Shown here piece after piece: positions 3,047 through 32,931 of a stretch of 45,694 nucleotides of DNA. The notes under the pieces were generated by a model, which was not told where the DNA came from, searched no databases, and saw nothing but the letters and a program-made list of their open reading frames with translations. How positions within the stretch are numbered: position 1 is the first letter of the stretch; every line of letters starts with the position of its first letter. The position numbers and the translations under genes were made by a program. Source of the stretch: a virus; IMG/VR virus record IMGVR_UViG_3300022890_000041, positions 1 to 45,694 of that record; one strand, written 5' to 3'.

Positions 3047-4003
3047 TTACTCGTTATATACATTGATCTTACATTCCCTTAATAATTCACCGATTATAGT
3101 TTTATTGATATATAAATCGTATAACTTTGGGTGAGTCGAATGCATAATTTGAAATCTATTCATCCCTTTTTCTAAATGTACGCCAAACGGACATCCAACA
3201 CAACCAGTTCTTTTATAACCTGTTGTTTCTAATTTTCTTGCTCTATGTAATTCTTCAAATCCCATAGAAGGAATAATTTCTCCATAAGCTTTACTCAAAT
3301 CTAATTTATATTTTAAAGTATATTGCAAAATATCTTGTTCAGTCCAAAAAGATAAAGGTGTTGATCTAATAAATGAGCCTTCAAAAACATTACATCCTTC
3401 CTTGAGATATTTAAATTTCCTCTGATTAGATTCTTCAACCATTGTGCCTATAAATGGTTTTAATCCTGTTTCTTTCTCAAATTTTTTAAATGGTTTTTTT
3501 TTCAATTCATTACAACATTTATCTGAACATTTAAATTTTGAATCTACAAGCCATTGCCATTTTTTAGATATGCAAAATTGAGTTTTAGTACCATCTTCCA
3601 TATATCCAGTCATCAAACGCTTAATAAGTTTTTTTGACTTCCCCCTTTGTACTTGATGTATGAAGTGAGCTTGTTGTTTTGTAGGAAATGGAATAAAACC
3701 ATCTTTTAATAACTTAAAAAATGTTGTTTTTGGTTTTACAAATTCAATATTATCTATTCTTTTGAGTTGTTCTGTGTTCTCTGGGAAACCTACACCTGTC
3801 AGAACATGCATAGCTTTCACATCAGGATAGATACTTCTAACCAAATGTAATAAAACATTAGAATCTTTTCCATCTATTGCTACATATACTTGTCCATTTA
3901 ACTTCTCATAAAAAGTTGTTATTCTCCTTAATGACATATTAATTTTAGCCTGTAAAGGAAGACTCTGTCTTTGTGCGAGTTGCCAATATTTTATATGTTC
4001 CAT
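3047..4003 (-). CDS. PAPS reductase / adenine nucleotide alpha-hydrolase-like protein
   Basis: 318 residues. VYVAIDGKDSNVLLHLV near residue 40 is the PP-loop of the phosphoadenosine-phosphosulfate reductase family, which binds ATP or PAPS. The usual S-G-G-K-D-S is changed to I-D-G-K-D-S, so the loop is altered. CSDKCCNELKKKP near residue 155 and GCVGCPFG near residue 268 are the cysteine motifs of this family, the latter likely holding iron-sulfur or zinc. Phage members are common and their role is usually unknown; relatives include the DndC-type enzymes that add sulfur to DNA. No other sulfur-modification genes are visible here. AT-rich, AGA-using class. Confidence 0.75.
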   Translation of the reverse strand: MEHIKYWQLAQRQSLPLQAKINMSLRRITTFYEKLNGQVYVAIDGKDSNVLLHLVRSIYPDVKAMHVLTGVGFPENTEQLKRIDNIEFVKPKTTFFKLLKDGFIPFPTKQQAHFIHQVQRGKSKKLIKRLMTGYMEDGTKTQFCISKKWQWLVDSKFKCSDKCCNELKKKPFKKFEKETGLKPFIGTMVEESNQRKFKYLKEGCNVFEGSFIRSTPLSFWTEQDILQYTLKYKLDLSKAYGEIIPSMGFEELHRARKLETTGYKRTGCVGCPFGVHLEKGMNRFQIMHSTHPKLYDLYINKTIIGELLRECKINVYNE

Positions 4004-4015
4004 TTTCTCCCTCAG

Positions 4016-4162
4016 TTAATTTTCACTTCTTTTTTTACTTCTTGCATAAAAACTTGCAACTCCACTTGGATATATTTGATAACCAACAGTATAATCTTTT
4101 GGTGCGATTTCTCGCATTTTAATTAATGTATCCATAATTTCTATTTTTCTTTTATCATCCAT
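4016..4162 (-). CDS. Hypothetical 48-residue protein
   Basis: A short frame starting at ATG 4162 with a good Shine-Dalgarno (GAGGT, 8 bases upstream). The product is basic, contains YTVGYQIYPSGVASFYARS and shows no known motif. It lies directly upstream of the PAPS-reductase-like gene and is likely cotranscribed with it. Confidence 0.5.
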   Translation of the reverse strand: MDDKRKIEIMDTLIKMREIAPKDYTVGYQIYPSGVASFYARSKKRSEN

Positions 4163-4325
4163 ATTCAATTACCTCTTCTTTGTTTTCTTTTGTCTTGATA
4201 TACTATTTTGTATCTTAGTATGTATCAACTAAATTAATCATTTGATGATTGTTTATAACCAACTTTCATCCTCATCCTGTTCAATCTCATCTCCTTCCAG
4301 AGCCATCCAACCCCACACTATCCAA

Positions 4326-4613
4326 TCAATCAACTTCAACACCAATAACTTTGAATTTAAGTGGTGTAAGGGCATGGTTTAAGCTCGCCATTAAAGACTT
4401 CTGGAATTTAATGAGTTCTGTTATGGATTTTACATTACTTCGCCTTAGACTGCTCTCTGCGTAATATTTTATTAACTGTTCTAATGTTGCAAAATAACCA
4501 TCATAATCAATTTTATCATTTTTTCCTTTATATGCTAACATCCATTGTTCACTATCTCCAGTAATAAAATACTTTTCATCTAATTTAATTTTTAATCTAT
4601 CTTTTTCTTTCAT
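4326..4613 (-). CDS. Hypothetical 95-residue protein
   Basis: 95 residues with a strong Shine-Dalgarno (GGAGG, 7 bases before ATG). N-terminal half is mixed beta-like (DEKYFITGDSEQWMLAYKG); the second half is helical (ATLEQLIKYYAESSLRRS). It overlaps the end of the ATPase gene by four bases. The pattern of a short beta-strand domain plus helices with a YF-A-TLEQL element is seen in small phage proteins of unknown function. AT-rich class. Confidence 0.55.
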   Translation of the reverse strand: MKEKDRLKIKLDEKYFITGDSEQWMLAYKGKNDKIDYDGYFATLEQLIKYYAESSLRRSNVKSITELIKFQKSLMASLNHALTPLKFKVIGVEVD

Positions 4614-5788
4614 TTTATTTCCTCCTCCTCAACTGGTTCATGGTCAGTCTCATTGAATACCGAAACCATCTCCTTATAACTTATCACTGCCTGGTCAATC
4701 AATCCCACATACTTATCAAACTCTTTCTGATCTACACAATACATATCCAGTAACCATAGTATCTCATTATATACTGCCTGTTTCCTGTTATCAAGTTTCA
4801 AGATACTACGATTCATGTACCTCAGTTCGTAGTCACCAGTCTGTTTATATTCCTGTAACCATAACAAGGTTTTCATGAAATCTATGTAATACATCTTATT
4901 TTCTATTGCAACAGATTCAATATCGAAATCCCGTGTGAATGATTGCGTTAATTTACCATCCAACTTAAGCTTCAATAATCTATCATCTATCGCTTTATTG
5001 TTACTGAATATCATCTCGAAATAATCTTTCTCAGGATTCTTATAACAATTAATATTATTATATAAATATGTGATAGATTGTAAGATACAATCATAATTGT
5101 TCTGAGTCCGATGACTTTTCATGGCACCGTTAATGTATTCAGGTGACCCGTCGCCTAAACAAAGTGTAAACTCTTCCATGATTTCTTTAACTTCTTTCTT
5201 AGATTTATGTGCCTCGTCAAACACTATAACCCCTGTTGATGTTATCTTATTCAAGACACCAGGGATACTTCTCGGTTTAAAGACAGGCGTTTTACTCGTG
5301 ATAGCGTTCAATACTCTGTATATCCCACTCTTCCCAAACCCTGGTTCAGTCGCAACACAGATGAACGTTCTTCCTGTGTAACTTACCAATGCTACCAGTT
5401 TCATGATGAACCATTGGTCAGGGTGTGTATTCTTGAACGGGACGAAATCATCTATCATCTGTCGTACCTCTAACCGTTGCTCAGGTTCAATCTTGAACGA
5501 ACTTACACTGGTCGGGTTAAATACTACGTCCTCTTTATGTTTTAACTCTTCATACTCTTTAACTCGGATAGGTAACAGACCATAATCTTCTTCCTTAATC
5601 CACCATTTCTCTTTATCTTTCTGAGCGAAGTAACCCCTTAAACTATCAAACCCGTCAAACTCAATCTCTTTCAGGTTACCTGATGTTACATGATGAGGTT
5701 GGATGAGTGAGTTAAACATGGTAGTGTTATGATTATTTAATACATCCATATGATACCTTGCTATTTCTGGCTTTAATATTGCTGTCAT
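4610..5788 (-). CDS. P-loop ATPase, probable replication helicase-like protein
   Basis: 392 residues. ATEPGFGKSGIYR near residue 144 is a Walker A motif (GxxGKS) and GVIVFDEAHKS near residue 186 is a Walker B motif with the DEAH sequence, followed by a probable sensor region. An N-terminal segment of about 120 residues and a C-terminal helical segment flank this core. It lies in the early arm with primase and SSB-like genes, so a helicase or helicase-loading role at the viral fork is the best guess. I cannot place it in a named family with certainty. Richer-GC codon class (CGG, CGA and AGG arginines). Start overlaps the YopX stop. Confidence 0.6.
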   Translation of the reverse strand: MTAILKPEIARYHMDVLNNHNTTMFNSLIQPHHVTSGNLKEIEFDGFDSLRGYFAQKDKEKWWIKEEDYGLLPIRVKEYEELKHKEDVVFNPTSVSSFKIEPEQRLEVRQMIDDFVPFKNTHPDQWFIMKLVALVSYTGRTFICVATEPGFGKSGIYRVLNAITSKTPVFKPRSIPGVLNKITSTGVIVFDEAHKSKKEVKEIMEEFTLCLGDGSPEYINGAMKSHRTQNNYDCILQSITYLYNNINCYKNPEKDYFEMIFSNNKAIDDRLLKLKLDGKLTQSFTRDFDIESVAIENKMYYIDFMKTLLWLQEYKQTGDYELRYMNRSILKLDNRKQAVYNEILWLLDMYCVDQKEFDKYVGLIDQAVISYKEMVSVFNETDHEPVEEEEIK

Positions 5789-6785: not shown

Positions 6786-7443
6786 TGCTATTAAACACCT
6801 GTTTTAGTTGTTTAACCTTGTCAACATTAATTACTCCTGTCTCAACTAACAGAGTTAACACGAAATGGTCAGCAGTATGTTTCTCCAGAGGTACTTCCCT
6901 GATATACCTAGCCTTGAACTCTTTAATGACTGTTTCTGTACCTTGCATATTTGGAGGTGATACTGTACCTTGTACCTGATTAATGCTTTGTGGAGCATTG
7001 ACAGGGTTAATAGCGTTAGGTGGTGTAAAGGGTTGATTTAAGGCATTATTATTTTCAGAGGGGGTTAGTACCTGTTGTTGAATAACTCCTTGATTTGGTG
7101 CTGTCTGCGTAGTCTGTGATGCACTTGTAGTAGATTGCTGATACCCCATATTCTCTGTTTCTGTGCTTGGGTTAATCTTAACAGCTTTCTTACTTTTCCT
7201 TGCTTCGTTGTTAACTGTGAAATGATCTTCAACATACGTAACCCGATACACATTGTTAGCAATTAAAGATTTAATGTCTAACTTCGGATTATCAAACCAT
7301 GTAAACCGTATTGGTTTAGTCATGTCACCATGATGTAACAATACATCATACGATTTCCATTCTTTACCTTTAGCTGATGTACCTTGACTTTTATCTTGTA
7401 CTCCCATTAAATGCCCTACATAATTCTTAAATTCATCACTCAT
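6775..7443 (-). CDS. Probable OB-fold single-stranded DNA-binding protein
   Basis: 222 residues in three parts. Residues 1-75 look like an OB fold (AKGKEWKSYDVLLHHG, IRFTWFDNPKLDI, NNVYRVTYVEDHF), resembling SSB/RPA-type domains. Residues 90-165 are a Gln/Asn/Pro/Ser-rich linker, as in many single-strand-binding proteins. Residues 175-222 form a compact helical C-terminal domain. It would coat single-stranded DNA at viral forks. Neighbouring ATPase and primase-like genes fit this role. The assignment is from overall design rather than a diagnostic motif. Confidence 0.55.
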   Translation of the reverse strand: MSDEFKNYVGHLMGVQDKSQGTSAKGKEWKSYDVLLHHGDMTKPIRFTWFDNPKLDIKSLIANNVYRVTYVEDHFTVNNEARKSKKAVKINPSTETENMGYQQSTTSASQTTQTAPNQGVIQQQVLTPSENNNALNQPFTPPNAINPVNAPQSINQVQGTVSPPNMQGTETVIKEFKARYIREVPLEKHTADHFVLTLLVETGVINVDKVKQLKQVFNSNDR

Positions 7444-22825: not shown

Positions 22826-23473
22826 ATGGTAACAACACGTACAACTGTAATATGTATCTCGATGATACTATTGTTCATTCTTATGGTAGGTTGTAGTTGT
22901 ACCCCTATAGAACCAGACTTAGATCCAGACAATTCCAGTACAGGTGCAGACATACTTAATCCATTAATACTTACTAAAGATGTAGTGTTTACTTCAAAGA
23001 ATACGTATGATGTTTCTGGATTAAATTTTAGATGTAAACAAACCACAAAAACATATAATAGAACAAGTATGGGTAAAGTTAATACCATGATATGTTATGA
23101 CGTGTATACAGTTGTAAAGTGTGATGAACGGGATGCAATATTAAATGTTACCACTAAAGAATGTTATATCATGAAAGAAGAGTGTGGTGAGTTTGAAACA
23201 CTTAAACCTGTGATAGAACAGTATAACATTTCAACATGTGTTAAAGATACTAAAGAGATCTTGTATCATGATACAATCTTAAAGTATGGTCAAAAGAATA
23301 TTGAATGTTCAATGTTAAATAAAGATACAATAATATGTGATGATATGAGAGGTAAAGATGGGAATGGAGATGGTATTTGTCAATCAGGAGAAACGTGTCA
23401 TACTTATAAAATAGAAGAAAATAATATCCAACTTGATAAAATTAAGAATGGTAACGTGGTATTAGCAAAATGA
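22826..23473 (+). CDS. Predicted lipoprotein
   Basis: 215 residues. MVTTRTTVICISMILLFIL followed by MVGCSC is a lipoprotein signal with a lipobox (V-G-C), so the mature protein starts at the cysteine near residue 23 and would be lipid-anchored on the cell surface. The rest has many cysteines (at least ten) and a DGNGDGIC segment resembling an EF-hand-type calcium loop. It lies among other secreted proteins. Function not known; superinfection exclusion or surface display are possibilities. Confidence 0.55.
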   Translation: MVTTRTTVICISMILLFILMVGCSCTPIEPDLDPDNSSTGADILNPLILTKDVVFTSKNTYDVSGLNFRCKQTTKTYNRTSMGKVNTMICYDVYTVVKCDERDAILNVTTKECYIMKEECGEFETLKPVIEQYNISTCVKDTKEILYHDTILKYGQKNIECSMLNKDTIICDDMRGKDGNGDGICQSGETCHTYKIEENNIQLDKIKNGNVVLAK

Positions 23474-26400
23474 ATAAAATAATGGTATTATGTTTATGTA
23501 TTTTCTTATTCATTCCTATTGTATTTTCTGATACTTGCGATACAACATATTTAGATGATAATACTATAGTACATTATTCGTTTGAAGAAACATCTAAACC
23601 GTATATAGATGATACAGAAACAATTAATTTAACCCTTGGTACGGATCCAGAGAGAATAGATGTAAGTGGTAGTTTAAATTATACTTATGGACAGAATTTT
23701 ACAGGGTCAGACGAATCATACAGCACAGCTAACACATTATTAAAATATGATGTATTTAGTTTTTGTTATTGGTATAGAGCTGATGATATAACTGGTTCAA
23801 ATATGGGTTTAGCAAGTTATCAAACAACACAGTATGGGCCTGGTTGGCGAATTAATATGCATAAAAATGACGGATCTATTGTATTTGATGTTTATGATGG
23901 TTCTGCCAATAGAGATGGAAGTTATAATACTGTTGGTTCTATATCTGAAGATGTTTGGTATCATGCCTGTAATGTTTGGGATGGTGATGATGGTTTTACA
24001 TATATTAAAGGATCTTCAAGTATACATTATGGCGATGCTCATGATACAATAGCTTATGCTGCAACTCAAGGGTTATATGTTGGTAACACTGAGGCATTTT
24101 TTAGTACAGCAGATTGGTCAGTGGCAGGTTGGGTTTATTTTGATGTAGCTTTAAATGAAACATGTAGAAGTTATGTACGAAGTAATACTTACCCTTACAG
24201 TGATGTGGTACCACCAGTTATATCTAACATTAATTGTACTTCATGTGACGCAAATAATATAACCGCAGATAGAACACCAACGTTCACGCTTGATACAGAT
24301 GAAAGTTCTAACTGTGGCATATCAAGTCAAAATAGTAGTTACACTAACTGTACAACGACAGGAGTACTTAATCATACTTGTACTATCCCTGTTGTAGATC
24401 AACTTGATTATGGTATTGTTAATGTGTTTTTTAATTGTACTGACGGTTCAAGTAATAGTAGAACAACAAGTGTAGAGATTGAAGTTCTATTAATCAATCT
24501 AACTTTCGTATCACCAACACCAGCTAACAATTCAGTAATATATGTAAATACAACCGAAATAAAGATTAATATTACAAATGCTACCACATTAGAACAATTC
24601 ATTTTTAACTGGAATGGAACAAACGAAACACAAGTTAAGGATATAGAATTTAATTTTACTGAAGAAAGTTTAACAGCATTAAGTTTTTATAATGGAACAG
24701 ATTTAATTGAATTATATAATGAAAGTTTATTAGTGTCATATAATTTTGACAATATTTCTAACTTAGGTGAAAGTGATTCTACTGTTGTTGATGTATCTGG
24801 AAATATGAACGCAACAGTGATAGGTGCATCTTTTACAACTTCTGGAAGATATAATGGTGCTTATAGTTATGACGGAACAGATGATTATATGAGTGCAGCA
24901 CAGACAGATTTAGATTTTAAAGTTGGACAAGAATGGACAATATCAACATGGGTTTATCGTAAAGATGATATAAGTAGTGGAGTGTTAGCTATATGGGGAC
25001 CAATCGGTGTTGTGGATAGAAATTGGTTATTACATTATGATGGCACAGAGTATGTACTTGGAATAAGAGGTGATGCAAATGCTCCTATGGGTAGTACACC
25101 ATTAAATGAATGGCATCATTTATTATCAAGTTATAATGGTACACATTTACATACTTATGTTAATGCTGTTTTTAATTCATCAACAGCTACAACTGTAAAT
25201 GGTTTAGGTGCTAATGAACCTTTAGAGATTGGAAGAAGGGGTGGGAGTAATATTTATGCATTTAATGGTTCTATAGATGAACTTCGTATTTGGAATAGGT
25301 CTTTCACTTCTAATGAAATTCAACAAATATATCTATCTAACTTAAATAAATTTGATACAGATGAATGGACATTTTATACTAATCAAACATTAGATTCTTA
25401 TCAAGTTAATATTAGAGGAAATAATAAAATAGATTTTGATAAGATAAGTTCAAGTAATTATTTATTTTCAACTAATAAGACAGTAGTTGAAGGTAATTAT
25501 ACATTTCAAGGGTTTGCTCAAGATAATTTAAGTAATTGGTTTAATACAGAAGAACGAATATTAAGAGTATTAGATCCTGCACCACAGATTCAGTTTCAGT
25601 CTCCTACACCAACAAACGGTTCAACAGTTATAACTGATGAAGTTACAATAAATGTTTCTATAACAGAATCAACTTTACAACAGTTTGTTTATAATTGGAA
25701 TGGAACAAACTATACTTCACCGATTTATAATTTATATGACAATGATATAGATAATTGTTCAGTTATGGATTATACAGATACTTCATTACACTTAGCATTG
25801 AACTTTGATAATATAAGTTCATTAGGTGAAACAACATCTCACCTTTTTGATTTAAGTCCAGCAGGTAATAATGGAACAATCTCAGGTGGGGTTGTTTATA
25901 ATACGTCAGGTTATTATGGACTTGCAATGGAATTTGATGGTGTAGAAGATTGTATTAATGTTGGGGATGTTATTAATAATCTTTCATTCACAAAGACTGC
26001 ATGGGTTAATAGACAAACAGGTGTGTTTGCTAATAACATTATTTCAGGTGGTGGAAACGGAGATATATTATGGGCTACATCATCTTATAGTTATAGATTA
26101 ACAGCAGGACATGGTTCTTCTTTAAATATTGTTCAAGATCCTATTCCATTAGAAGTTGAAACATGGTATCATGTAGCAGTATCGTATGATGGTGATGGAA
26201 TGTATTTATATAAAGATGGTAAGTTAGTTGATAGTGCAACAGGAGTAACACTTGATAGTGATCCAGGCGTTACATATGTTGGGTGTTTTGCAGGTAATAA
26301 TAGTTGGAATGGGCGTATAGATGAACCAAGAATTTGGAATATATCTTTATCTGAGACAGAGATTAAACAAATATATTTATCAACTCTTAATATGTATGAA

Positions 26401-28113
26401 TCTAATGAATGGGAATTTTCTACTACACAACACAATTTAATAGAAGGCAATTATACGTTTCAAGCATATGCAACTGATTCAAATGATAGATTAAATAGTA
26501 CTGAAGAAAGGCAAGTAACTATACAAGCATTAGACCTTGTTATTGGTTATCCAACAGAATATACGCTTTATCAGAGACATAATGATACGCATGGTGAAAT
26601 AAAGATTCAAGGAATATATGGGACAACAAACAACGCCACATCAATAGATGCAAGATTTAATGGTGGTGATTGGGTAACAATAGATGCATCACCTTCAGGT
26701 AATTCATTCATAGGATATTTAAATGCTACAATAGGAAACGGTACATTAGATATTGCTTATGGAAATAATTATTCAATTAATACATCAGTTTATAATATTT
26801 CTATTGGTGATTTATATGTTGTTGGCGGTCAATCTAATGCATATGGTACAGCATTACATTATCAGAATTTAAGTGATTCAAATAATTATTTATCAACAGT
26901 TTTTATTTATGATAATACTTGGAAAATAAATAATGATCCAACAACAGCACTTGGAGTTACAAATGGTTGGGGTTCAGCATGGCCTAATGTTGCAAACTAT
27001 GTTATACAGAATCAAAGTGTTCCTGTATCGTTTATAGCAGCAGCAACTCCTGGAGCACAATTATTTGAATGGATTAAAGGTGGTGAAGATTATGATAATA
27101 TGATTGAAATGACAGCAAAAGCAACTAATGGCACAATGAAAATTAAATCATATTTATTTTTTCAAGGTGAGAATGATATGTTGAATGGATGGAATGAAGG
27201 AACAGAATATCACGATAATTTAACACAGATGGCAGATGATTTTATTAATGATACTGATTGCATTGCTGATACAATTATAGTAGGTCAGACTAACAGATAT
27301 TCTTATCAAGGAACAAGTGCAACAAGACCTCATCAAGACAACGTTAGACAAGCACAACAGGATGCTTGGGGAGAAACTAATAACATTTCTAAAGGGCCAG
27401 TCACATATGATATAAATTTAAGTATTGATGGATTACATTTCAGAACAAATTCAGAGATGCAGAATTTCAGTTTAAGATGGTATTATTCAATGTTAGATGT
27501 TTTATATAGTGATTCAAGTTTCGATAATCCAATACCTACAATTTTTAATTTGATTGATAATGGTTCGAATTCAATATTAAGAATTACATATGATCAAAAT
27601 ATAGTAAGTAGACATTGGAATGGAAGTACAAATACGTTAGCAAAAGGATGGTTAATATATAATTTAACAGGTAGCACAAATTATTCTGATTCTGATGTTT
27701 TAAAAACAAACATAACAGCGAATGTAATAGATGTTGTGTTTGATTATGATGCAGTTATTCCTTATGGTTCAAGATTGTATTATGGAAGTTTTAATGATGG
27801 ATATAATAAATATGTTGTATCTGGATTAACAACAGAACTTCCTAGTAGATTAATATTTAATGAAACACTTAATGTTACTGTATCAGACACTTGCACATAT
27901 TCAGGTTCAGGTGATTGGACTGTGTTATGTACCGATAACTGTACCATAACAACTAACACAGACACAACAACAAACGCATTAATTATTGATGGTGCTGTTG
28001 GTTACTTTGAACTGTTAGCTAATGTAACATGTGAGATGTTTGCAATAGAGGAAGGGTGTCAGTTCAGGAACAAGATGAACGATAATAAACGGTTAGCGGT
28101 GAAGGAAGATTAA
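23470..28113 (+). CDS. Giant secreted LamG/esterase protein
   Basis: 1547 residues. A signal peptide (1-20, ending VFS-D) is followed by a LamG/ConA-like domain (about 25-235), an Ig-like spacer (about 240-400), a second LamG (about 418-622), another spacer, a third LamG (about 771-977), and a SASA-type carbohydrate esterase domain (about 1110-1340). Its GQSNA has the nucleophile S1122; QGENDM is at about 1232-1237; DGLHF holds D1320 and H1323 of the catalytic site. It would bind and de-acetylate glycans of the host surface layer. The Ig/LamG style (SPTPANNS...NWNGTN) resembles DPANN surface proteins. AT-rich, sequon-rich. C-terminal end is cysteine-rich. Confidence 0.7.
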   Translation: MNKIMVLCLCIFLFIPIVFSDTCDTTYLDDNTIVHYSFEETSKPYIDDTETINLTLGTDPERIDVSGSLNYTYGQNFTGSDESYSTANTLLKYDVFSFCYWYRADDITGSNMGLASYQTTQYGPGWRINMHKNDGSIVFDVYDGSANRDGSYNTVGSISEDVWYHACNVWDGDDGFTYIKGSSSIHYGDAHDTIAYAATQGLYVGNTEAFFSTADWSVAGWVYFDVALNETCRSYVRSNTYPYSDVVPPVISNINCTSCDANNITADRTPTFTLDTDESSNCGISSQNSSYTNCTTTGVLNHTCTIPVVDQLDYGIVNVFFNCTDGSSNSRTTSVEIEVLLINLTFVSPTPANNSVIYVNTTEIKINITNATTLEQFIFNWNGTNETQVKDIEFNFTEESLTALSFYNGTDLIELYNESLLVSYNFDNISNLGESDSTVVDVSGNMNATVIGASFTTSGRYNGAYSYDGTDDYMSAAQTDLDFKVGQEWTISTWVYRKDDISSGVLAIWGPIGVVDRNWLLHYDGTEYVLGIRGDANAPMGSTPLNEWHHLLSSYNGTHLHTYVNAVFNSSTATTVNGLGANEPLEIGRRGGSNIYAFNGSIDELRIWNRSFTSNEIQQIYLSNLNKFDTDEWTFYTNQTLDSYQVNIRGNNKIDFDKISSSNYLFSTNKTVVEGNYTFQGFAQDNLSNWFNTEERILRVLDPAPQIQFQSPTPTNGSTVITDEVTINVSITESTLQQFVYNWNGTNYTSPIYNLYDNDIDNCSVMDYTDTSLHLALNFDNISSLGETTSHLFDLSPAGNNGTISGGVVYNTSGYYGLAMEFDGVEDCINVGDVINNLSFTKTAWVNRQTGVFANNIISGGGNGDILWATSSYSYRLTAGHGSSLNIVQDPIPLEVETWYHVAVSYDGDGMYLYKDGKLVDSATGVTLDSDPGVTYVGCFAGNNSWNGRIDEPRIWNISLSETEIKQIYLSTLNMYESNEWEFSTTQHNLIEGNYTFQAYATDSNDRLNSTEERQVTIQALDLVIGYPTEYTLYQRHNDTHGEIKIQGIYGTTNNATSIDARFNGGDWVTIDASPSGNSFIGYLNATIGNGTLDIAYGNNYSINTSVYNISIGDLYVVGGQSNAYGTALHYQNLSDSNNYLSTVFIYDNTWKINNDPTTALGVTNGWGSAWPNVANYVIQNQSVPVSFIAAATPGAQLFEWIKGGEDYDNMIEMTAKATNGTMKIKSYLFFQGENDMLNGWNEGTEYHDNLTQMADDFINDTDCIADTIIVGQTNRYSYQGTSATRPHQDNVRQAQQDAWGETNNISKGPVTYDINLSIDGLHFRTNSEMQNFSLRWYYSMLDVLYSDSSFDNPIPTIFNLIDNGSNSILRITYDQNIVSRHWNGSTNTLAKGWLIYNLTGSTNYSDSDVLKTNITANVIDVVFDYDAVIPYGSRLYYGSFNDGYNKYVVSGLTTELPSRLIFNETLNVTVSDTCTYSGSGDWTVLCTDNCTITTNTDTTTNALIIDGAVGYFELLANVTCEMFAIEEGCQFRNKMNDNKRLAVKED

Positions 28114-28177: not shown

Positions 28178-28211
28178 ATAAACGCCAGAGATTGTGTTTA
28201 CTGGCGTTTAT
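28178..28211 (+). promoter_or_regulatory. Hairpin 1 of the capsid-gene leader
   Basis: ATAAACGCCAG (28178-28188) and CTGGCGTTTAT (28201-28211) form a perfect 11-bp stem with a 12-base loop. Its left arm shares bases with hairpin 2, so the two cannot form together. Confidence 0.75.
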
Positions 28212-28223
28212 ACTTTCTCTGGC
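28184..28223 (+). promoter_or_regulatory. Hairpin 2 of the capsid-gene leader
   Basis: GCCAGAGA (28184-28191) pairs perfectly with TCTCTGGC (28216-28223), spanning hairpin 1's right arm. The alternative fold lies just before the start codon at 28236. Confidence 0.7.
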
Positions 28224-28235
28224 ATTATAATCAAG

Positions 28236-30380
28236 ATGCCTAAAATGACTAAAGAAACAATTAGAAAGGAACAATTCTGTAAGGTTGGTGGATTTGAGTT
28301 TAAAGATTTAGATGATGATAAAATCATTGGTGGATTCATAGCTACCACACACCTTGATAGTGGGTTTGAACATCCAGAGTTAGGTTGGGTTTGTGATAAG
28401 ATTGATAAAGAGTTACTCGGTGAATGGGCAACAGAACTTAACCAAGGTATACCAAGAGCAAACAAAGTTAGTATACATCATGATCGGAAAGATAAGATTG
28501 TGGCTGGTGTAGCACAAAAGAATACTGCATCAATCATAGAATTACCAGACGGTGAGTACGGATTATATGTTGATTCTTTAATAGATAGTACACATCCAGA
28601 TTATAGTACAACAGACCATAGGCTAGGGAATGGAACCCTTGACAGTTTCAGTATTGAGTTTTGTAACTCAGAATTTACAACATACAGTAAAGATGGGTTT
28701 GTTGAACGACATTTACATCCTGGGACGGAGTTGTTAGGTTATACTTTAGCATCCAGGCCAATGAATGAATACGCTGTACGTATTAAAGAAGTTAACATGA
28801 ATCAAAATAAAATAGGCATTAAGGAGGAAAATAAAATGACTGAAGATAAAATTAAAGAGTTAGAAGCAAAAGAGAAAGAATTAACAGAGAAGGCTGATGC
28901 TCTTGCAAAGAAGGAACAGGAACTTAAAGAAGAAGCAGAGAAACCTGCTGAAGAAGAACCTACAGAAGAAGAACCTAAAGAATCTACAATTTCAAAAGAA
29001 GATCTTGCATTACTTAAAGAGATTAAATCAATGAAAGCTTCCGAAGCTAAAGAGAAAGAAATGAAAGAGTTCGTTAAACAAGCTAAAGAAGAATTGAAAG
29101 AATCCCTTGACAAGGTTGATGTTAAGAGTAAGGTCCAAGTTAAAGATACTGAAGATTTATCTGTTGAAGTTAAAGAAATCAAAGAATACGCTGACACAGT
29201 TATTGTTGAAGCTAAAGAACACAAAGATGGTAGAGTAACTTTCGAGAAAGAAGGTAAAATAATCTCTGTTGACAAGATGTGGCATGAAGCTGGTCAGATG
29301 GCTGATAAGTTAGGATTAACTGTTGATGGTCTTAAGATGGATGCACAGAAATGTGAACATAGAAAGTTTGATAACTTTACTACAAACGGTAAGATGCTTG
29401 AAACTAAAGGATTAGGTATTGACACTAACCAAGGTTCAATCAATTATTTAAGTGCTGTTGAACTTGCTGATGTGTTTGATCCTGTTATTCATAACGCACT
29501 TAACCAGGAAACTGTCACATGGAACGTATTATCTAAAGAAGATAAAAGTATGAAAGGTAATAACCAAGTCCAGTTCAAAGTTAAGACTGCAGCTAACACA
29601 ACTACTGGTGCATACTTAGGTAACGCTGTCACAACAGGTAACGTAACAAGAATCAACTGTCAAACCAAGTTTAAGAAGTATCAAGTTGGTGTTGAAGTTG
29701 ACGGTGACATGATTGCTGCTGCACGTGGTGGTCCAATCGGTGACGTATTTTCTAACGAAGTACGAGATTCAACCATTGACTTAATGGCAGATATTAATGT
29801 AGATTTGTATGCTGAAGTTGGTGCTGAAACTGCTGCTGGTGTGATTGGGTTTGAATATATAACTGACAGTGCAGGTAACACTACATTATACAGTTATACA
29901 AGGTCAAGTACCACAGACAGTGCTAACGTGTTCCTTAACCCGTCCAGTGCTGGTGATACATACATTAACCAAGCTAGTGCAGACATTACGTTAAGTAACC
30001 TTAGAGCTGCTAAAAGGCAAGCTTTAAAGAACGGTGCACAGATTGGGAACTTAGTATACTTCACTGACCATATCCAAGGCGATAAGTTTAGAGGAATATA
30101 TGACGCTGCTCAGAGAAACACACCTACATCTACACGATGGGGTTTCGAAGGAAGGCCAGAGTTTGACGGTATACCAATCTTTGAAGATAAAGATTGTAAC
30201 GATGATGACTGGTTCCTTGTTGATCTTACCACACACAAGATTGCTATGTGGGTTCCACCTACATTAGAAATGTTAGGTAAAGATTCTGACAGTGAGAAAG
30301 GGTTCATCAAGACATACTTTGCAACATATAATACATTCATCAGACGTATGGTGCAGATTTATGGTTGTGCAACAACTTAA
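28236..30380 (+). CDS. Prohead protease, scaffold and major capsid fusion protein
   Basis: About 714 residues from ATG 28236; an in-frame GTG at 28194 lies in the hairpin loop and is unlikely. The N-terminal domain (to about 180) is an HK97-type (S78-like) prohead protease, with H in SIHHDRKDK and S in TLDSFSIEF as the probable catalytic pair. About 200-330 is a Lys/Glu-rich coiled coil, the scaffold. The rest is an HK97-fold capsid domain rich in Ala, Thr and Gly. The protease would cut scaffold from capsid during maturation. No Shine-Dalgarno lies before the ATG, but an internal one occurs at 28820 (see next entry). Confidence 0.7.
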   Translation: MPKMTKETIRKEQFCKVGGFEFKDLDDDKIIGGFIATTHLDSGFEHPELGWVCDKIDKELLGEWATELNQGIPRANKVSIHHDRKDKIVAGVAQKNTASIIELPDGEYGLYVDSLIDSTHPDYSTTDHRLGNGTLDSFSIEFCNSEFTTYSKDGFVERHLHPGTELLGYTLASRPMNEYAVRIKEVNMNQNKIGIKEENKMTEDKIKELEAKEKELTEKADALAKKEQELKEEAEKPAEEEPTEEEPKESTISKEDLALLKEIKSMKASEAKEKEMKEFVKQAKEELKESLDKVDVKSKVQVKDTEDLSVEVKEIKEYADTVIVEAKEHKDGRVTFEKEGKIISVDKMWHEAGQMADKLGLTVDGLKMDAQKCEHRKFDNFTTNGKMLETKGLGIDTNQGSINYLSAVELADVFDPVIHNALNQETVTWNVLSKEDKSMKGNNQVQFKVKTAANTTTGAYLGNAVTTGNVTRINCQTKFKKYQVGVEVDGDMIAAARGGPIGDVFSNEVRDSTIDLMADINVDLYAEVGAETAAGVIGFEYITDSAGNTTLYSYTRSSTTDSANVFLNPSSAGDTYINQASADITLSNLRAAKRQALKNGAQIGNLVYFTDHIQGDKFRGIYDAAQRNTPTSTRWGFEGRPEFDGIPIFEDKDCNDDDWFLVDLTTHKIAMWVPPTLEMLGKDSDSEKGFIKTYFATYNTFIRRMVQIYGCATT
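28836..30380 (+). CDS. Nested scaffold-capsid product from an internal start
   Basis: In frame inside the fusion gene, AAGGAGGAAAATAAAATG places a consensus Shine-Dalgarno 8 bases before ATG 28836. Translation here gives 514 residues: scaffold (coiled coil about 5-120) and capsid domain, without protease. This would supply many more capsid than protease copies, like lambda C/Nu3 in principle. Upstream protease codons end with an out-of-frame TAG just before the Shine-Dalgarno, so the fusion may have come from loss of a stop. Confidence 0.6.
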   Translation: MTEDKIKELEAKEKELTEKADALAKKEQELKEEAEKPAEEEPTEEEPKESTISKEDLALLKEIKSMKASEAKEKEMKEFVKQAKEELKESLDKVDVKSKVQVKDTEDLSVEVKEIKEYADTVIVEAKEHKDGRVTFEKEGKIISVDKMWHEAGQMADKLGLTVDGLKMDAQKCEHRKFDNFTTNGKMLETKGLGIDTNQGSINYLSAVELADVFDPVIHNALNQETVTWNVLSKEDKSMKGNNQVQFKVKTAANTTTGAYLGNAVTTGNVTRINCQTKFKKYQVGVEVDGDMIAAARGGPIGDVFSNEVRDSTIDLMADINVDLYAEVGAETAAGVIGFEYITDSAGNTTLYSYTRSSTTDSANVFLNPSSAGDTYINQASADITLSNLRAAKRQALKNGAQIGNLVYFTDHIQGDKFRGIYDAAQRNTPTSTRWGFEGRPEFDGIPIFEDKDCNDDDWFLVDLTTHKIAMWVPPTLEMLGKDSDSEKGFIKTYFATYNTFIRRMVQIYGCATT

Positions 30381-30447: not shown

Positions 30448-30744
30448 ATGACCGCAATTACGGTAACAGAATTTTCACTTGAAGAGTTACCAACAACAGT
30501 AATCTCTGGTACACCAGTACGAAGAGGAAGAGTTTATCTAAGGTTCACATCTGCAACAACAGGAGAAACATTAGACTTATCTTCAATCAATGCAGCAATA
30601 GCAGACATAGAAGGAATACCATACGAAACAGATGACGGTGTTTCTGTTAATACAGCAGGAACAGCATCAACATGGTCAACAGTAACTTTAACAAGTAACA
30701 CTGCTGGTGTAGAAGAGATGTGTATAATGGTAACTTTAACATAG
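30448..30744 (+). CDS. Decoration-type protein 1a
   Basis: 98 residues of beta-rich sequence starting M-T-A-I-T-V. Strongly similar across its length to the next gene (YETDDGVSVNTAGTASTWS vs YETDDGAAVNTSGTAATWS), so a tandem duplication. Preceded by GGAGGAATGATATAAA. Position right after the capsid gene suggests a head decoration or stabilising protein; not proven. Confidence 0.5.
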   Translation: MTAITVTEFSLEELPTTVISGTPVRRGRVYLRFTSATTGETLDLSSINAAIADIEGIPYETDDGVSVNTAGTASTWSTVTLTSNTAGVEEMCIMVTLT

Positions 30745-30757
30745 GAGGAATGATAAT

Positions 30758-31054
30758 ATGACAACTATAACTATAACTGAATTTTCAGTTGAGGAGTTTC
30801 CAACAGATCTACTATCAGGCACATCTAAACGTAGAGCAAGAGTTTATTTAACAGCAACCACATCTGGTGCTGATGAAACTTTAGACCTTGCTACGATATA
30901 TGCACCTATAGCGGATATTGAAGGAGTAAATTATGAGACGGATGATGGTGCTGCTGTTAACACTAGCGGTACTGCTGCTACATGGTCAGGTACAACATTA
31001 ACCAGTAAATCTACTGGAGTAGAAGAACTATGTATTACTGTTACATTAACATAG
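30758..31054 (+). CDS. Decoration-type protein 1b
   Basis: 98 residues, same length as its neighbour with which it shares ITEFS-EE-P, GRVYL/ARVYL, DIEG-YETDDG and VTLT at the end. It has the same Shine-Dalgarno block (AGGAGGAATGATAAT). Divergence of the pair suggests they may form a hetero-oligomer on the capsid. Confidence 0.5.
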   Translation: MTTITITEFSVEEFPTDLLSGTSKRRARVYLTATTSGADETLDLATIYAPIADIEGVNYETDDGAAVNTSGTAATWSGTTLTSKSTGVEELCITVTLT

Positions 31055-31069
31055 GAGGAATGATAAAGA

Positions 31070-31342
31070 ATGACTGCTGCAACAATTACAACTAAACCTG
31101 ATGGAGAATTAGCAAGTGAACATAGAGTTTTAACTGTATCGGACGGTGAAACCTTTGTATCTAACTTGTCTAATCCAATAATGGCTAAGTTAACACAAGC
31201 TGAAACAACCACAACATGGGCTGGATCTGCTGTTAATTTATCGTATGCACTTTCAAGTAAAACATTCACTATCACATATAAAATTGCAGGTAGTGCTGTT
31301 ACTGATAAAAAAGTAGCAATATCTGTATATGGTAGGAAGTGA
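31070..31342 (+). CDS. Decoration-type protein 2a
   Basis: 90 residues. Paired with the next gene: both begin MTAATITTKP, share VLTVSDGET and GSAVNLSYALS-TFTITY and end VYG-K. Beta-rich, probably a small virion surface protein. Not obviously related to pair 1 except for the M-T-A start and Shine-Dalgarno. Confidence 0.5.
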   Translation: MTAATITTKPDGELASEHRVLTVSDGETFVSNLSNPIMAKLTQAETTTTWAGSAVNLSYALSSKTFTITYKIAGSAVTDKKVAISVYGRK

Positions 31343-31348
31343 TAAAGG

Positions 31349-31621
31349 ATGACTGCTGCGACAATTACAACTAAACCTGAAGGTTATGTAAATTCAGACC
31401 GTAAAGTATTAACCGTATCAGATGGTGAAACTTACATCTCTGGATTCTCTAAACCATTAATGGCTCAACTTAGTTTAGCTGAGGCACATGGTGGTGGGGC
31501 TGGATCTGCTGTAAACTTATCATACGCATTATCAGGCAACACATTTACTATCACATATCAGTTAGATGGTACTGGTGTTACTGATAAGAAAGTTGAGATA
31601 GAAGTTTATGGCAAGAAATAA
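31349..31621 (+). CDS. Decoration-type protein 2b
   Basis: 90 residues, second copy of the pair. The variable section is around residue 50 (TTTTWAG vs HGGGAG). It has a GTGAT Shine-Dalgarno at the end of the previous gene. Confidence 0.5.
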   Translation: MTAATITTKPEGYVNSDRKVLTVSDGETYISGFSKPLMAQLSLAEAHGGGAGSAVNLSYALSGNTFTITYQLDGTGVTDKKVEIEVYGKK

Positions 31622-32082: not shown

Positions 32083-32931
32083 ATGACTGCAACATATGCC
32101 ACACAAGCAGAACTGTTAAGTTTTTTAGGGTTTAGTGATTCAGATAAACCAGACTATTTAACTGATACAGTATTACAAGATGCTCTTAATAGATCACAGA
32201 ATGAGATAGATGAAGAGACTAATACACATTTTTCTGATGGAACAGAAGCTACTCCAGATTATACTCAAGTAACCAACGAGAAACATAAGGGTAAAGGACA
32301 ATATAATAGAGACTACTTTTTAGAGCAACTTCCTTTACCTAACGTTTCTTCGGAAGTATCAGGCACAGCGATAACTGCTGATGATACAACCATCTGGGTT
32401 ACGAGCACTAACGGGTTTCCTACTATAGGAACCATAGGTATTGAAAGTGATAAGATTGCGTATACAGGTAAAACTACTACGGCGTTCACAGGTTGTACAG
32501 GTGTTGACAGTGCCCATGGTACAGCTCAACCAGTTAAACCTTATGTGGTAGAGATAAGTTCAACCATCTCAGGTAATGTACCAGTATGGACTGTATTAGA
32601 TGAAGATAGAGAATTTGATATGGATATTGATTCAGCTAGAGTATTTGTATACAGAGACGATTTCATCCTTGACACATATTCAGGATATAATGTAAGAAAA
32701 ATCCCTAACAGGTTCAGAGCAACATATTTAACAGGCCACAGTAATATACCACTTGACATTAAAAGGTTATGCTTAATGATAGCTGCCAAAGAATTAATGC
32801 ATACTGCAGTACGTAAAGCTACCATGTTAGGTCAGAACGAGTTCAACCCAAGCATGATTAATGTTGATGATGACTGGATCCTGGACACTATTAAAGATTA
32901 TAAATCATATCAAGTTAGTAATAATATTTAA
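32083..32931 (+). CDS. Head-tail connector protein (gp6-like) with inserted beta domain
   Basis: 282 residues. ATQAELLSFLGFSDSD at the start and RLCLMIAAKELMHTAVRK with the last helices resemble head completion proteins that form a ring below the portal. Residues about 90-150 are a beta-rich insertion (TTIWVTSTNGFPTIGTIG). Position after head proteins and before tail proteins agrees. GGTGAT Shine-Dalgarno. Confidence 0.55.
   Translation: MTATYATQAELLSFLGFSDSDKPDYLTDTVLQDALNRSQNEIDEETNTHFSDGTEATPDYTQVTNEKHKGKGQYNRDYFLEQLPLPNVSSEVSGTAITADDTTIWVTSTNGFPTIGTIGIESDKIAYTGKTTTAFTGCTGVDSAHGTAQPVKPYVVEISSTISGNVPVWTVLDEDREFDMDIDSARVFVYRDDFILDTYSGYNVRKIPNRFRATYLTGHSNIPLDIKRLCLMIAAKELMHTAVRKATMLGQNEFNPSMINVDDDWILDTIKDYKSYQVSNNI

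Follow-up and report, generated by a model that had tools for sequence, protein, structure and literature searches.

Fusions of prohead protease, scaffold and capsid protein in a single gene have been described in several groups of bacterial phages. They are found in Microbacterium phages of clusters EE and EL, Arthrobacter phages of clusters AM, AU and AN, Gordonia phages of clusters CW and DM, and Rhodococcus phage RRH1 (PMC7302621, PMC5513430). In gp5 of Pseudomonas phage MD8, protease, scaffold and capsid likewise share one gene (PMC8508860), and in the Rhodobacter RcC phages the capsid and protease are fused (PMC8601537). A protease-scaffold-capsid fusion is itself already known, and is not new here. 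Such fusions pose a puzzle, namely how a shell of hundreds of subunits is assembled if every subunit has a protease. The accessible sections of the open-access literature on them, including these four papers, do not describe an internal start. Two related arrangements use separate genes. In HK97, gp5 carries the scaffold (delta domain) as an N-terminal extension of the capsid protein, and the gp4 protease is encoded just upstream (PMC8508860, PMC10275583). In phage lambda the protease-scaffold gene (gpC) is overlapped in frame by the scaffold gene Nu3 (Shaw and Murialdo 1980, cited in PMC8508860).

Herein, we describe a fusion gene with a conserved internal start in an uncultivated virus. The sequence analysed is a whole IMG/VR record of 45,694 bases (34% G+C), hereafter the window. 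It contains a terminase large subunit (matches to Pfam Terminase_6N and PHROG 2), and is therefore a tailed virus. A frame open over 714 codons is situated in its head module (Table 1), so that the window has in one gene what HK97 has in two, gp4 and gp5. The first-pass annotation had read this frame as protease, scaffold and capsid, and had pointed to an AAGGAGG lying 8 bases before an in-frame ATG; both motifs are present in the sequence, with the ATG as codon 201.

Table 1. Features of the fusion gene, in coordinates of the window
Feature	Coordinates	Strand	Remarks
Full-length product, protease-scaffold-capsid fusion	28236..30380	+	714 aa, ~79.8 kDa; open frame; ATG without SD
Prohead maturation protease domain	28236..28835	+	Residues 1-200; folded part ~25-185; candidate catalytic His82 and Ser139
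Internal Shine-Dalgarno (SD), AAGGAGG	28821..28827	+	8 bases 5' of the internal ATG; conserved in the linker
Internal in-frame start codon (codon 201)	28836..28838	+	ATG; SD strongest among the gene's in-frame ATGs
Predicted internal product, scaffold-capsid	28836..30380	+	514 aa, ~57 kDa (57.2); predicted from the conserved start
Lys/Glu-rich helical scaffold (delta-domain-like)	28842..29351	+	~codons 203-372; approximate 3' limit
HK97-fold major capsid domain	29352..30377	+	~codons 373-714, ~37.6 kDa; approximate N-terminal boundary

Several neighbouring genes of the window were also recorded. Just 5' of the capsid fusion, within the head module, positions 23470-28113 encode a secreted-looking protein of 1547 aa with repeated LamG-like segments; at the matching position, the related contig L003 has a different-looking protein of ~1500 aa. 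Directly 3' of the capsid gene are two tandem pairs of small similar genes with very strong SDs (30448-31054, 98+98 aa; 31070-31621, 90+90 aa), which are candidate decoration proteins. The protein encoded at 32083-32931, in the position of a head-tail adaptor, has a short segment that matches baseplate wedge and other structural PHROGs, and which is possibly a domain common to unrelated virion proteins. Elsewhere, the minus strand carries a phosphoadenosine phosphosulfate reductase-like gene (3047-4003; PHROG 424, E 1.9e-37).

Four scans of viral contigs yielded ~20 related contigs. The resulting gene set comprised 20 genes, those of the window and 19 relatives; 15 of the relatives were clearly distinct from each other, giving 16 distinct genes with the window. 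Most family genes are 41-62% identical to the window protein. A tblastn search of 50,697 phage records with the window fusion protein gave no match at E 0.01, and the window terminase had no match in the phage records either. Two genome scans aimed at host assignment found no relatives. The gene is one uninterrupted fused ORF in every close relative in which it is complete (19/19 relatives tested). A stop codon lost from the window by sequencing error, which would have made the fusion an artefact, is therefore excluded. A separate capsid gene was found only in L065 and L066, which are very distant relatives by their protease. In L066, a single ORF (3141-4685) runs from protease through a long insert to scaffold, with the capsid-like gene separate and downstream; a strong internal SD and ATG precede the scaffold, an arrangement like that of lambda C/Nu3.

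Next, the domains of the protein were assigned. Single-sequence Pfam and PHROG searches of the 714-aa ORF gave nothing convincing, and PDB sequences searched with profile A1 yielded no credible match. A domain-by-domain alignment of the 16 family sequences was used to assign protease and capsid. Residues 1-200 were modelled with AF2 at a pLDDT of 78. Foldseek alone found no relative of this model at E 0.001; VIA-align then found matches, the best in the PDB being the T4 gp21 prohead protease (Z 11.4, rmsd 3.1, 132 aa), followed by the herpesvirus assemblins (Z 8-8.6). All gp21 and assemblin matches scored above unrelated entries. Two of the 16 members, but not the window protein, matched Peptidase_S78 (Pfam) weakly (best E 0.0022). 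All 16 sequences have His82 and Ser139. At the level of the predicted structure, a prohead protease fold of the gp21/S78/assemblin type with a candidate catalytic His and Ser is confirmed, and the protease that had been placed at the N-terminal end is borne out by the gp21 match and the two invariant residues.

The region past the protease forms long helices (residues 3-33 and 54-93 of the internal product) in an AF2 model of low-to-moderate confidence. It is Lys/Glu-rich, with a pI of 4.8, and weakly conserved in the alignment. Lys/Glu-rich helices between protease and capsid are what a scaffold would be predicted to look like, and the model agrees with the earlier expectation of a scaffold here. 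In several relatives the C-terminal part hits major head protein families of PHROG, with E values down to 2.5e-8. The corresponding model had a pLDDT of only 48. Its best VIA-align matches were encapsulins and capsids of the HK97 fold (Z 8-10.6), and in BFVD it matched phage capsids, among them the capsids of two tailed viruses of haloarchaea. Together, the relatives' PHROG matches and the fold matches of the model give moderate support to an HK97-fold major capsid in the C-terminal part of the frame, as had been claimed.

In the window alone, the internal start motif is too common to mean much: AAGGAGG-N5-9-ATG was observed twice where 0.31 were expected, and GGAGG-N5-9-ATG seven times where 2.9 were expected. 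Since chance is possible in the window alone, the weight rests on conservation in the 19 related genes. SD energies were computed against the common anti-SD, which may not be the host's; on this scale the ATG at the protease/scaffold junction had a mean of -10.1 kcal/mol over the 20 genes, versus -2.2 for 284 other in-frame ATGs. An SD of -9 kcal/mol or lower preceded 17/20 junction ATGs, versus 1/284 of the others. The junction ATG had the strongest SD in 18/20 genes, and in the window gene it ranked top of 15 in-frame ATGs. When the 16 distinct sequences were aligned at the ATG, the successive positions of GGAGG were kept in 13, 15, 16, 15 and 16 of them, in a linker that is otherwise little conserved.

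The coding sequence around the AAGGAGG of the window is rich in Lys and Glu, and codons for these two residues may happen to produce such a motif. Synonymous codons were therefore shuffled within each gene to provide a null distribution. Over the 16 distinct genes, which are related by descent, the Fisher p was 2.9e-5. Single-gene values ranged from 0.002 to 0.6 (0.165 for the window gene), and the strength thus lies only in their combination; these p-values are indicative, since the relatives share ancestry. Codon choice gave the same picture. The Glu codon at -4 was GAG in 15/15 distinct genes, in which the GAG share of Glu codons is 9-47% (usually ~27%); the product of these fractions is 3e-9 if shared ancestry is ignored. 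At -3 the residue varies between Glu, Asp and Val, yet its codon begins with G in nearly all sequences. Judged against the synonymous-codon null, the internal SD is conserved beyond the amino-acid requirement, and it points to translational nesting. The first-pass annotation had predicted two nested products that both include the capsid, and this conservation strongly supports such an arrangement.

A conserved stretch of this kind could instead be a protein motif, for example a protease cleavage site in the linker, of which the SD is a codon by-product. Cleavage between protease and scaffold is to be expected, and the Glu at -4 and the Met at 0 are almost invariant. However, a protein motif would not demand that the Glu be always GAG, nor a G-starting codon for whichever of Glu, Asp or Val follows, and it is at odds with the result of the synonymous null. 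In relative L019 the residues are K-G-D-C-M, but GGTGAT is retained before the ATG. We consider a protein motif very unlikely. The position at a domain boundary would also suit a translational pause, at which the protease folds before the scaffold is synthesised and no initiation takes place. A pause needs no ATG 7-9 nt away, yet an in-frame ATG is present in 16/16 distinct sequences (the position having itself been chosen as the alignment anchor), and we give this explanation very little credence indeed.

A third alternative is that only the full-length fusion is made, and that the internal SD and ATG are a relic of a separate scaffold-capsid gene whose upstream stop was lost. The separate capsid genes of L065 and L066 speak for such a history. 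A relic would decay, however, whereas both the SD and the ATG have been retained in genes as divergent as stated above, and synonymous sites are constrained at the SD in an otherwise non-conserved linker. A relic is thus improbable, and translation from the internal start remains the preferred reading.

The junction varies in detail among the relatives. The SD is weaker in L011 (GAGGT, -7.2) and L057 (GAGGT), and L019 has a stronger SD 15 codons downstream of its GGTGAT. L011 carries an inserted DUF6582 domain between protease and scaffold, just upstream of position 6871, with an SD-like ATG on each side. Six relatives (L013, L014, L016, L018, L020 and L021) have two tandem start-like sites 33-36 nt apart, AAGGAG and then GGAGG, each 8-9 nt 5' of an in-frame ATG, except that the first site of L020 has GTG.

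We then compared the family with the fusions of bacterial phages. The actinophage proteins named 'major capsid and protease fusion protein' (BurtonThePup, Circum, Maggie, RRH1, Camille and Count) resemble the window gene in having protease, scaffold and HK97-type capsid in this order in one ORF (PMC7302621, PMC5513430). They have no detectable sequence similarity to it, and a strong SD is common at their full-length start, unlike in the window family. The MD8 protease is ClpP-like, whereas that of the window has the predicted gp21/assemblin fold. By eye, many actinophages, MD8 and Stenotrophomonas S1 have SD-like junction ATGs, and those of Bing and Camille look good as single cases. The idea of a convergent internal start in bacterial fusions was dropped, as a rule-based synonymous-codon test of 22 such fusions gave a Fisher p of 0.96, with none below 0.05. 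L075 (MT835495), a phage contig from the human gut whose fusion belongs to the Circum-type group, has two strong SD-ATG junction sites, at codons 167 and 267; these are suggestive, and not significant under the synonymous null.

The negative result in the 22 bacterial fusions shows that the synonymous-codon test is not trivially positive, and that a nested start is no general property of protease-capsid fusions. It also means that a working fusion does not need a nested start, a point in favour of a relic. On present evidence, the conserved nested start appears to be a trait of the window's virus family rather than something that fusions generally have.

If both starts are used, the relative strength of the two would decide which protein is the more abundant. 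In the window, the SD energy is -1.5 kcal/mol at the full-length start versus -10.0 at the internal start, and the four genes that follow the fusion have values similar to the latter (-10.2 to -11.1). The full-length starts of 16 genes have a mean of -1.6 kcal/mol and differ from the internal starts with a paired Wilcoxon p of 4e-4; exceptions are L054 and L019, in which the SD of the full-length start is strong and moderate, respectively. In the window RNA, the internal start is open and the full-length ATG is part of a hairpin. Greater mRNA accessibility of the internal start was rejected as an explanation, since no difference was seen across the family. Upstream of the full-length start, positions 28178-28240 can form a strong hairpin (TAAACGCCAG...CTGGCGTTTA) that overlaps a second inverted repeat, and the full-length ATG can fall in a further short hairpin.

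Given a weak full-length SD and a strong internal one, the short, protease-free form is likely to be dominant, as far as SD strength is a guide. Alternatively, both products could be made at similar levels, or with an excess of the long form, if the full-length start is efficient through leaderless or otherwise SD-independent initiation. Starts that lack an SD can be efficient in archaea; the 122-nt gap before the full-length start may mean that a new transcript begins there, and the similar accessibility of the two starts across the family would fit as well. Against such a balance, the internal SD equals those of the following structural genes in strength, and a protease on most shell subunits is structurally implausible. 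We regard a comparable or long-dominant output as rather unlikely, and dominance of the short form remains our preferred reading.

We propose that two nested proteins are probably made from one mRNA, a scarce protease-scaffold-capsid and an abundant scaffold-capsid, which co-assemble and thereby fix the dose of protease. Use of both starts, product ratio, co-assembly and processing are what we infer from the conserved start. Initiation at 28236, which lacks an SD, would give a minority 80-kDa protein, and initiation at the internal SD and ATG (28821/28836) would give the bulk 57-kDa protein. With scaffold and capsid present in each precursor, the two would be expected to co-assemble into one procapsid. 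The protease would be brought in as an N-terminal extension on a minority of shell subunits, facing inward with the scaffold, and its dose would be set by the relative strength of the two starts. After assembly, the protease would remove the scaffold and itself, leaving a single mature form of the capsid. The predicted masses are 79.8 kDa for the full-length product, 57.2 kDa for the internal product and ~38 kDa for the capsid domain.

Such a conserved internal start would answer, for the window's virus family, the puzzle of a protease on every subunit. We think it reasonably likely that a one-gene shell programme, in which dual initiation supplies capsid subunits with and without protease, is a family trait of these uncultivated tailed viruses, one not seen conserved in the known bacterial fusions. 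Assembly would then rest on two products of one gene, which makes the system testable by expressing that gene alone. Annotating this locus as a single 714-aa protein would miss its probable main product.

The arrangement has parallels in other systems. Gag and Gag-Pro are analogous as capsid subunits without and with protease, which here would be produced by nested starts. In lambda, Nu3 is made from an internal start, and at the sequence level the window shares an internal in-frame start, preceded by an SD, where protease and scaffold meet. In protease type lambda differs from the gp21/assemblin fold of the window, and the lambda capsid protein E is a separate gene, whereas in the window the capsid would be part of both nested products of the same ORF. 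The herpesvirus UL26/UL26.5 pair consists of nested protease-scaffold and scaffold-only products, made via an internal promoter. It resembles the window in protease fold and in the logic of nesting, but the herpesvirus capsid protein is separate. By analogy, the division of labour proposed for the window would be that of lambda C/Nu3 and herpesvirus UL26/UL26.5, except that both members would also carry the capsid.
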